Source: an uncultured Flavobacteriales bacterium
Lineage (GTDB): Bacteria; Bacteroidota; Bacteroidia; Flavobacteriales_D; Crocinitomicaceae
Assembly: GCA_903935095.1 (NCBI GenBank)
Contig: CAIZQH010000025.1
Coordinates: 1-64,000 of the forward strand
Reading direction: 5' to 3'
Length of the DNA stretch: 64,000 nucleotides
Shown here: piece by piece, positions 9,825 through 63,033 of the stretch
How positions within the stretch are numbered: the first letter of the stretch is position 1
Layout of the letters: each line of letters opens with the position of its first letter
Made by a program: the position numbers and the translations under genes
The notes under the pieces: generated by a model
What the model was told of the DNA's origin: nothing
What the model saw: only the letters and a program-made list of their open reading frames with translations
The model's database searches: none

Positions 9825-10571
9825 ATGGGATTACTAGCTAATAAAATTGTGTTAATTACAGGAGCTTCTCGTGGAATCGGGAAAGCAATTGCAGAAGAAT
9901 GTGTTCGTCAAGGTGCAACAGTTGCCTTTACGTACTTGTCGTCAGAGGAAAAAGCGCGCGCTTTGGAAGCTGAATTGACAGCAAACGGAGGGAAAGCAAA
10001 AGGATTCCGTTCGGATGCTTCTAATTTTGATCAAGCACAACAATTAGTAGATGACGTCGTGGGTGAATTCGGAACAGTTGACGTGCTGGTAAACAACGCA
10101 GGAATCACACGTGATACCTTGTTGATGCGTATGACCGAAGAACAATGGGACGAAGTCATCAATACCAACTTGAAATCAGCATTCAATTTAACGAAAGCGG
10201 TTCAAAAACCGATGTTGAAAGCACGAAGCGGATCCATTATCAATATGTCATCAGTTGTCGGTGTGAAAGGTAACGCAGGACAATCGAACTACGCAGCTTC
10301 GAAAGCGGGATTGATTGGCTTCACTAAATCCATTGCTGCGGAACTTGGTTCGCGTAACATCCGTTGCAACGCCATTGCTCCAGGATTCATCGAAACAGAA
10401 ATGACGGATGCATTGAATCCAGAAGTGGTTCAAGGCTGGAGAAATAGTATCCCATTGAAACGCGGTGGACAGCCAATCGACGTAGCAAATGCGACTGTTT
10501 TCCTTGCTTCTGATATGTCCGCGTACATCACAGGTCAAACACTACACGTTTGTGGTGGAATGTTAATGTAA
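9825..10571 (+). CDS. fabG: 3-oxoacyl-[acyl-carrier-protein] reductase FabG
   Basis: 248 residues, standard for FabG. Short-chain dehydrogenase with cofactor motif GASRGIGKAIA, NNAG (in VDVLVNNAGITRD), and the catalytic Ser/Tyr/Lys in INMSSVVGVKG and QSNYAASKAG. It reduces 3-oxoacyl-ACP with NADPH in fatty-acid elongation. ATG 9825 is chosen because it gives the family N-terminus and sits just after a -7 box. First gene of a four-gene run; hemB begins 4 nt after its stop. Confidence 0.9.
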   Translation: MGLLANKIVLITGASRGIGKAIAEECVRQGATVAFTYLSSEEKARALEAELTANGGKAKGFRSDASNFDQAQQLVDDVVGEFGTVDVLVNNAGITRDTLLMRMTEEQWDEVINTNLKSAFNLTKAVQKPMLKARSGSIINMSSVVGVKGNAGQSNYAASKAGLIGFTKSIAAELGSRNIRCNAIAPGFIETEMTDALNPEVVQGWRNSIPLKRGGQPIDVANATVFLASDMSAYITGQTLHVCGGMLM

Positions 10572-61749: not shown

Positions 61750-63033
61750 ATGAGTACAGCATTAGGAAATCACATTTTAGTTGAATTTATGAACTGTGAT
61801 CCGCACGTGATGAATGACGTGGCAGCTATTGAACGAGATATGGTTGGAGCGGCAAAAAAAGCCGGTGCAACAGTGATTAACTCTACGTTTCACCATTTCT
61901 CTCCATACGGAGTTTCTGGTGTCGTGGTGATTCAAGAAAGTCACTTGGCGATTCATACGTGGCCGGAATATGGTTACGCGGCTGTAGATTTATTTACATG
62001 TGGTGAAATGAATGCGTGGATTTCTTTCGATCACTTGAAAGAATGTTTCGGTTCGAAGTCCTACTCAGCGATTGAATTGAAAAGAGGATCTGTGAATTTA
62101 TTGCAACGAAACGATTTTGATATCTCCTCCGCTCGCGAGAAAGCAGCTGAATGGAGAAATCCAGAGTTCTATACACGAAACGTTTGGTTTACGGATAAAG
62201 ACGAAGATCAAGCATTGTCCTTGCGTTTTACAGGTGATGTCATGGTAGATGTTCAATCACCTTTCCAACGTGTTCGTATTCTAGAATCCTTGAAGTACGG
62301 TAAAATGTTGGCCTTAGACGATATGGTCATGACAACAGAGAAAGACGAATTCCATTACCATGAAATGATTTCACATCCTTCCCTATTCACTTTACGCAAT
62401 GCGAAAAATGTATTAGTGATCGGTGGTGGAGATGGTGGGACTGTGAGAGAGGTACTGCGTCATTCAAACATTGAGAAAGTTACGATGGTAGAAATCGACG
62501 GTGAAGTAATTGAGGCGTGTAAAGTGCATTTACCTCAAATCGCTGCATCATTTGGTGACCCACGTCTGGAATTGATTGTGGACGACGGAATTGAGTTTGT
62601 GAAAAATGCAAAACAAGGCGAATACGACATCATCATTGTCGATGGATCTGATCCAGTTGGACCGGCTGAAGGATTGTTCTCAGTCGATTTCTACACAAAT
62701 TGCTACAACGCATTGAAAGCGGAAGGAATTCTTGTTGCACAAGGAGAATCTCCAAAATTCAATGAGAAAGCATTCGCTGAATTGAATCATACTTTACAAG
62801 GAATTTTCGGGGAAAACAATGCACCTGTTGGATTGTTCTTTGTTCCTACCTACCCTACTGGTATGTGGAGTTTCCAATATGGAATCAAAGGAAATTGCCA
62901 TCCGAAAAACGTTCAAAATGTAGACGAAATCCGTCAGTTTGTTGCTGATCAAGGATTGCGTTATTACAATGAGGACATTCACTTTGCAACGTTTGCAACG
63001 CCAAATTTTGTCAAAACATTATTACGTAAATAA
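61750..63033 (+). CDS. Fused S-adenosylmethionine decarboxylase and spermidine synthase
   Basis: 427 residues, two enzymes in one chain. Residues 1-120 are a class 1b AdoMet decarboxylase: self-cleavage site Glu63-Ser64, His69 and Cys84 ([18 protein letters not shown]) match the SpeH residues of Thermotoga (62/63, 68, 83). Residues about 135-427 are a complete spermidine synthase: [18 protein letters not shown]-site GGGDGG (225-230), catalytic Asp298 in [10 protein letters not shown]. It makes decarboxylated AdoMet and transfers its aminopropyl group to putrescine. Cleavage at Ser64 would leave the pyruvoyl chain joined to the synthase. Single-gene unit with its own promoter. Confidence 0.94.

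Follow-up and report, generated by a model that had tools for sequence, protein, structure and literature searches.

The window analysed here, a 64,000-nucleotide stretch of DNA from an uncultured Flavobacteriales bacterium of the Crocinitomicaceae, most probably encodes a bifunctional, self-processing AdoMet decarboxylase (AdoMetDC)–spermidine synthase, whose fused gene would have arisen once by merger of speD and speE and would have been inherited within the family with losses and with one transfer to a phage. Spermidine is a small molecule used by many cells, and its two enzymes are normally separate. In the mechanism proposed, the chain would cut itself between Glu63 and Ser64 into a 63-residue beta chain and a 364-residue alpha chain, the latter starting with a pyruvoyl group and bearing the synthase at its C-terminus. 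The decarboxylase half would make decarboxylated AdoMet, and the tethered synthase would move the aminopropyl group onto an amine presumably derived from arginine via the arginine-decarboxylase-like enzyme of the genome, spermidine being formed directly from putrescine or via N1-aminopropylagmatine. The tether would impose a fixed 1:1 ratio and common regulation, with no indication of a hand-off tunnel. This reading draws on gene anatomy, single copies, conservation, selection, phylogeny and co-occurrence with the decarboxylase-like gene, from which we infer cleavage, activities and substrate. Its interest lies in how widely the lineage keeps the fusion, in the acceptor question and in the phage copy. 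A lineage that has long kept an AdoMetDC–spermidine synthase fusion, and whose phylum also has unfused relatives for comparison, allows the value of tethering to be tested.

Gene and Domain Architecture

The gene is a single open reading frame of 427 amino acids with an ATG start and a TAA stop, and the frame above the ATG stays open for only five codons, which would give 432 amino acids. Its features are collected in Table 1.

Table 1. Features of the fused gene (window positions) and location of its phage homologue.
Feature	Position	Strand	Basis
Fused AdoMet decarboxylase–spermidine synthase gene, 427 aa	61750..63033	+	Single ORF; Pfam and NCBIfam domains; sole SpeD/SpeE matches in genome
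AdoMet decarboxylase domain, residues 8-113	61771..62088	+	PF02675; 1tlu E 1e-40; 1tlu Z 21.9, 1.0 A over 116 residues
Predicted beta chain, residues 1-63	61750..61938	+	Inferred from aligned T. maritima AdoMetDC processing site
Ser64 codon AGT, predicted pyruvoyl source	61939..61941	+	Aligned to serine altered in S63A non-processing mutant 1tmi; invariant 34/34
Linker, residues 115-143	62092..62178	+	Between two domains; pLDDT <50 over 111-158
Spermidine synthase N-terminal (tetramerisation) domain, residues 145-197	62182..62340	+	PF17284
Aminopropyltransferase domain, residues 200-377, fold continues to C-terminus	62347..62880	+	PF01564; 1jq3 Z 34.6 over model residues 141-427
GGGDGG motif, residues 225-230	62422..62439	+	Sequence; invariant 34/34
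Asp298 codon GAT, predicted catalytic aspartate	62641..62643	+	Sequence; invariant 34/34
Phage fusion gene	L185 9995-11278, ATG at 10001		IMG/VR contig, also L184, L186

Three Pfam domains score above their curated cut-offs, namely AdoMet_dc (E 4.1e-40), Spermine_synt_N (E 2.3e-10) and Spermine_synth (E 3.1e-59), and two NCBIfam equivalog models recognize the decarboxylase half (TIGR03330, SAM_DCase_Bsu, 139.6 bits, cut-off 75.65) and the synthase half (TIGR00417, speE, 294.6 bits, cut-off 249.55). SpeD comes first and the synthase (145-427) second, in one reading frame and separated by a linker of about 29 residues. The original prediction of both enzymes in one chain is confirmed by this single frame and its Pfam and NCBIfam matches, and it had placed Glu63, Ser64, His69, Cys84, the GGGDGG motif and Asp298 at the right residue numbers. 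It had also described both enzymes as intact-looking, which agrees with the conservation of the processing and synthase motif residues: Glu63, Ser64, His69, Cys84, GGGDGG, Asp298, Asp301 and Gln331 are invariant in 34/34 aligned fusions (34 of 46 representatives, leaving out five of other fusion types, L166, L167 and L169-L171, and seven close ones). Asp298 we take to be the catalytic aspartate, from what is known of spermidine synthases.

The genome (2.48 Mb in 29 contigs, 99.63% complete) has one place matching PF02675 and one matching PF01564, both in this reading frame, and the profile searches of the 29 contigs, a check proposed in the original prediction, detected no separate speD or speE elsewhere. 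An assembly artefact or frameshift is ruled out, since both domains lie in one frame in all 80 named loci compared, which are the best 80 of 234 and were thus picked for closeness. The closest of them are metagenome-assembled genomes (MAGs) of Crocinitomicaceae and Flavobacteriales with 97-98% identity; the 80 also include Taishania pollutisoli CZZ-1 (L088; 82% identity to the window protein), a record that is not labelled as a MAG. Four MAG records carrying 85-98% identical fusions are named Polynucleobacter meluiroseus, Chryseobacterium gleum, Sphingomonadales and Chitinophaga pinensis (L034, L035, L042 and L055, respectively); these names are probably wrong labels.

A polyamine operon is ruled out, the gene neighbours encoding MutS domain V and FKBP-type proteins, which adjoin the fusion in only 24/71 and 33/74, respectively, of the named loci with enough flank. 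Between 61300 and 63800 no known RNA element matches Rfam at gathering thresholds, and scans for promoters and terminators near the fusion gave no more hits than shuffled sequences, the promoter scan using a sigma-70 consensus that may not suit Bacteroidota.

Distribution, Selection and Origin

In the survey of the order, SpeD was found in 114/245 genomes. The match lies in a frame of fusion length (407-464 aa) in 97 cases, in a SET fusion of 625 aa in one, and in frames of 98-269 aa in 16, some of which are cut by contig ends; for matches without a locus sequence, these classes reflect frame length alone. Across the phylum, SpeD occurs in 60/296 genomes and the window-type fusion in five of these 60 (432-446 aa), two of the five being the window genome and a genus-mate. 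The remaining frames comprise one SET fusion of 619 aa, three shorter fusions of 366-380 aa, 50 frames of 119-185 aa and one of 295 aa.

Purifying selection acts on both domains. Compared with seven closest relatives, there are 0-6 nonsynonymous and 15-38 synonymous differences in SpeD, 0 and 8-18 in the linker, and 6-13.5 and 54-106.5 in SpeE. For six more distant relatives, pN/pS is 0.026-0.094 in SpeD, 0.17-0.31 in the linker (29 codons) and 0.15-0.28 in SpeE, with several dS values saturated.

In the synthase tree, 25 window-type fusions form one group (85/93, below the star threshold), two state changes are needed, and the SET fusion L166 sits elsewhere on a long branch. Rows no longer than 200 residues (L167, L169, L170, L171, L129, L132 and L142) are absent from this tree, although L009 was kept despite its shortness. 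The SpeD tree, from which L175, L178 and L180 were dropped, needs four changes; at 117 columns it is too short and was abandoned as a guide to placing all the fusions. A single origin of the window-type fusion within this Bacteroidota lineage is most likely, a reading against which stand the value below threshold and the four changes of the SpeD tree. With regard to its source, speE lies downstream of speD on the same strand in 27 of the 29 unfused loci having both genes (three of the 27 being plasmid or phage records; SpeD matches below 30 bits excluded), with stop-to-stop gaps of -70 to 864 bases, so that a merger of neighbouring speD and speE would be the simplest origin. The other two loci (L168 and L174) have a longer SpeE-like gene upstream, and nine further unfused loci show no speE within the stretch examined.

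Amine Supply and the Acceptor Question

The likely route, as far as the encoded proteins suggest, would lead from arginine through agmatine and putrescine to spermidine, or from agmatine through N1-aminopropylagmatine to spermidine. One PF02784 protein of the genome exceeds the cut-off (C28, L112). It is arginine-decarboxylase-like, with the biosynthetic arginine decarboxylase 3n2o as best PDB match and 166.4 bits against the speA model, under that model's cut-off of 624.1. The same protein scores higher as arginine-decarboxylase-like (166 bits) than as lysA (79 bits, cut-off 298), and the PF02784 search of the genome showed no separate diaminopimelate decarboxylase. Four arginase-family proteins are encoded: one is agmatinase-like (L115 1426-2472; TIGR01230, 172.8 bits, just below the cut-off of 174.3), another scores as arginase (231.9 bits, cut-off 227.6), and the two others are weakly hutG-like. 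Searches of the genome found no agmatine deiminase (PF04371), no AAT-fold ornithine/lysine/arginine decarboxylase (PF01276) and no deoxyhypusine-synthase-like protein (PF01916); the ornithine decarboxylase folds covered were PF01276 and PF02784. Because arginine-decarboxylase-like and agmatinase-like proteins are both encoded, putrescine or agmatine could serve as acceptor; the original prediction had taken it to be putrescine.

Natural losses within the genus bear on the source of the amine. No SpeD is present in 8/50 listed genus members of at least 90% completeness (G009, G017, G026, G027, G033, G462, G465 and G478), so the gene is dispensable for some. PF01564 matches are absent from five of the eight and weak in three (35.8-47.3 bits, in frames of 527-563 aa), while a full synthase is present in all six fusion genomes chosen for comparison, two of which have extra weak PF01564 matches. 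The arginine-decarboxylase-like gene is found in 6/6 of these fusion genomes vs. 1/8 of the fusion-less ones (Fisher p 0.0047, kinship ignored), G009 being the one that retains it. Given that the two genes tend to be kept or lost together, the fusion appears tied to an arginine-derived amine; and, since the arginine-decarboxylase-like gene is missing as well from seven of the eight fusion-less genomes, part of the genus seems to have lost triamine synthesis or replaced it.

The synthase half belongs with the spermidine synthases (SpeE) both by the TIGR00417 cut-off and by its fold. Its best sequence matches among solved aminopropyltransferases are 6qmm (231 bits), 1inl (227) and 1iy9 (225), and in the AlphaFold2 model it superposes on 1jq3 over 271 residues at 2.2 A. 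It is tentatively possible, if somewhat doubtful, that this half mainly takes agmatine, which would make the protein an AdoMetDC–N1-aminopropylagmatine synthase producing spermidine without free putrescine, with the agmatinase-like ureohydrolase acting last. The presence of both arginine-decarboxylase-like and agmatinase-like genes, the failure to find agmatine deiminase or an AAT-fold decarboxylase in the genome, and the co-occurrence just described all accord with it. So do the results in the available text of PMC11107197, in which agmatine, too, was an aminopropyl acceptor for 17 of 18 bacterial spermidine synthases and most species with this activity encode arginine decarboxylases only. 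The identical gene set, however, also fits a pathway in which agmatinase acts first and putrescine is the acceptor, and putrescine-using spermidine synthases such as 6qmm are among the closest structures, the Thermus triamine/agmatine enzyme (3anx) lying further off at 137.5 bits. Choosing between the two amines by motif fails, as no motif separates the two activities according to the same available text.

Structural Model and the Linker

The AlphaFold2 monomer model of the bifunctional enzyme, built on the 34-row alignment, has a mean pLDDT of 78.5 and a pTM of 0.65, with low confidence over residues 1-4, 111-158 and 301-306. With pLDDT below 50 over 111-158, the model does not define how the two active sites lie with respect to each other. 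Human spermine synthase (3c6k) spans both halves of the model, but with an rmsd as high as 12.4 A. What the model supports is two normal folds joined by a tether that is flexible or undefined; nothing in it favours channelling.

The original prediction had proposed that the tethered sites could pass decarboxylated AdoMet directly from one to the other, which looks unlikely. In its favour, the halves are physically linked, and the linker shows zero nonsynonymous change among eight close sequences. On the other hand, the monomer model gives the linker low confidence and predicts no set geometry between the halves; at wider distances the linker evolves about like the synthase (pN/pS ranges above); and unfused speD–speE pairs are common in the phylum.

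Comparison With Known Systems

Bacterial AdoMetDC–aminopropyltransferase fusions are already published and shown to be active, as the available text of two papers makes clear, so the statement in the original prediction that such fusions are known was well founded, and the window protein adds a further example. Ca. Pelagibacter fusions restored spermidine in Escherichia coli lacking speD and made spermine or thermospermine in a strain lacking speE (PMC11107197, available sections), and one fusion each from a delta-proteobacterium and from Krumholzibacteria are active AdoMetDC–spermine synthases (PMC12803844, available sections, where Green et al. 2011, Mol Microbiol 81:1109, is cited for bacterial AdoMetDC–SpdSyn fusions). 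As far as these texts describe them, they share with the window protein a class 1b AdoMetDC at the N-terminus, an aminopropyltransferase at the C-terminus of the same chain and a retained processing site. The window protein, known from its sequence, differs in belonging to another lineage (Crocinitomicaceae and relatives), in a synthase half that resembles spermidine synthases and in having a phage copy.

Whether the second half might be a spermine or thermospermine synthase, as in those bacterial fusions and in animals, must be considered, since the published fusions of the same architecture yield these products and an Asp followed by GG in motif 2 suits spermine synthases as well as spermidine synthases. 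This reading is very improbable: the half scores 55 bits against human spermine synthase (3c6k) vs. up to 231 bits against spermidine synthases, exceeds the spermidine synthase cut-off of TIGR00417 and has Asp228 where most thermospermine synthases have Glu in motif 2 (two exceptions; PMC11107197, section 10, as available), and the genome has no second synthase to supply spermidine, though a bifunctional enzyme could do so. Human spermine synthase likewise joins a SpeD-like N-terminal domain to an aminopropyltransferase; its SpeD-like half is described in the available part of PMC12803844 as no longer an AdoMetDC, whereas the window protein, with its processing site retained, falls outside the animal type.

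The first half has the class 1b residues (Glu63-Ser64, His69 and Cys84), and the family-model cut-off, the fold and these residues together place it in class 1b SpeD. The closest solved structure by sequence is the AdoMetDC of Thermotoga maritima (1tlu), which shares 53% identity over the 116 residues that align with the AlphaFold2 model. Judging from the conserved site, self-cleavage of the chain is very likely. That this half has turned into an ornithine or arginine decarboxylase or into a structural domain only, both documented for SpeD homologs (the former in PMC10407285, available text), is barely conceivable given the invariant processing residues (34/34 fusions), the identity to T. maritima AdoMetDC, the TIGR03330 score, the low pN/pS and the lack of a second SpeD in the genome to feed the synthase. 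The SpeD–SpeDC fusions of that same paper, in the text available, also hold a self-processing SpeD within a fused chain; their partner is a second SpeD-like ornithine decarboxylase, unlike the aminopropyltransferase found here, and the window protein is therefore not of that type. In T. maritima, the AdoMetDC and the spermidine synthase (1inl, 1jq3) match the respective halves in sequence and fold and are separate proteins.

A Phage Copy of the Fusion

A scan of IMG/VR revealed one 107 kb contig (IMGVR_UViG_3300030012_002034) with a single-ORF AdoMetDC–spermidine synthase fusion, 72% identical to the window protein over residues 1-422 and conserved at 23/23 compared positions, among others Glu63, Ser64, His69, Cys84, Asp228 and Asp298. 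The gene sits two genes downstream of a phage DNA polymerase (phrog_1252, E 1.2e-139), and its other neighbours encode an exonuclease VIII-like protein, a phage ATPase, a phrog_1314 protein and a 1565-aa protein with a LysM domain. The contig is taken as viral from IMG/VR and from the genes in the 16 kb read, and its host is deduced from the tree. A short hairpin followed by a T run, read by eye just upstream of the gene, suggests that it may be its own transcription unit. The GC content of the phage gene, at 29.0%, is phage-like, that of the rest of its stretch being 29.9% and that of the window gene 40.9%.

In the tree, the phage fusion pairs with that of a genus member, G012 (100/99), inside a 23-row group of the window's family (99/99); in G012 the fusion lies among chromosomal genes (Lgt, M24 peptidase, PorP/SprF). 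When G012 is removed, the phage sequence becomes sister to the other 21 rows of the group. Transfer to the phage from the lineage of the window's family thus holds with or without G012, the exact position inside it being unsure, with two AT-rich, longer branches; an AU test of the placement (p 0.0485), made after the tree was seen, counts for little.

Among 30 viral loci from a profile search, one is fused (L186, of the same contig as L184 and L185) and one has separate speD and speE (L191). The other 28 have no synthase match within the stretch examined, two of them (L214 and L215) also having no SpeD match at cut-off. Single-protein queries, which reach close relatives only, found no phage-borne arginine decarboxylase or agmatinase of the kind in the window genome. 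The main text of a virosphere survey (PMC9992855) does not contain the words "fusion" or "fused", and a full-text literature search, limited in extent and in the portions of papers available and hence no proof of absence, met no description of a phage AdoMetDC–spermidine synthase fusion.

There is about an even chance that a Crocinitomicaceae phage captured the fusion and, during infection, obtains triamine from this one gene, with agmatine of the host possibly serving as substrate instead of putrescine. With both activities in one gene, the whole aminopropyl step is movable as a unit, and the phage copy suggests that a pathway step gains portability through fusion; this copy also allows the need of phages for newly made triamine to be tested.

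Other SpeD Fusions and Variants in Bacteroidota

Other arrangements of SpeD were noticed in the phylum. Two Bacteroidota genomes of different families encode, in one frame, triple fusions of a SET domain (PF00856), AdoMet decarboxylase and spermidine synthase: L166:2082-3956 (+, G547; 625 aa) and L167:1468-3324 (-, G260; 619 aa). They present the SET-like motifs NHSC.PN and E(I/L)TYDY together with the SpeD Glu-Ser site. Nothing obviously describing such a fusion appeared among the literature matches listed (15 of 92), and no plasmid record covered 80% of it. A third, shorter kind of SpeD–synthase fusion (366-380 aa), with a weaker synthase half, occurs in another family of the phylum (L169:2309-3448, G245; L170:1878-2975, G123; L171:1935-3035, G090). 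Finally, the window's family has SpeD-like proteins of about 100 aa with a Glu-Ser-His site (L178:1441-1740, -, G442; L180:1726-2052, +, G382), which score 55-57 bits against PF02675 and could be decarboxylases for another substrate.
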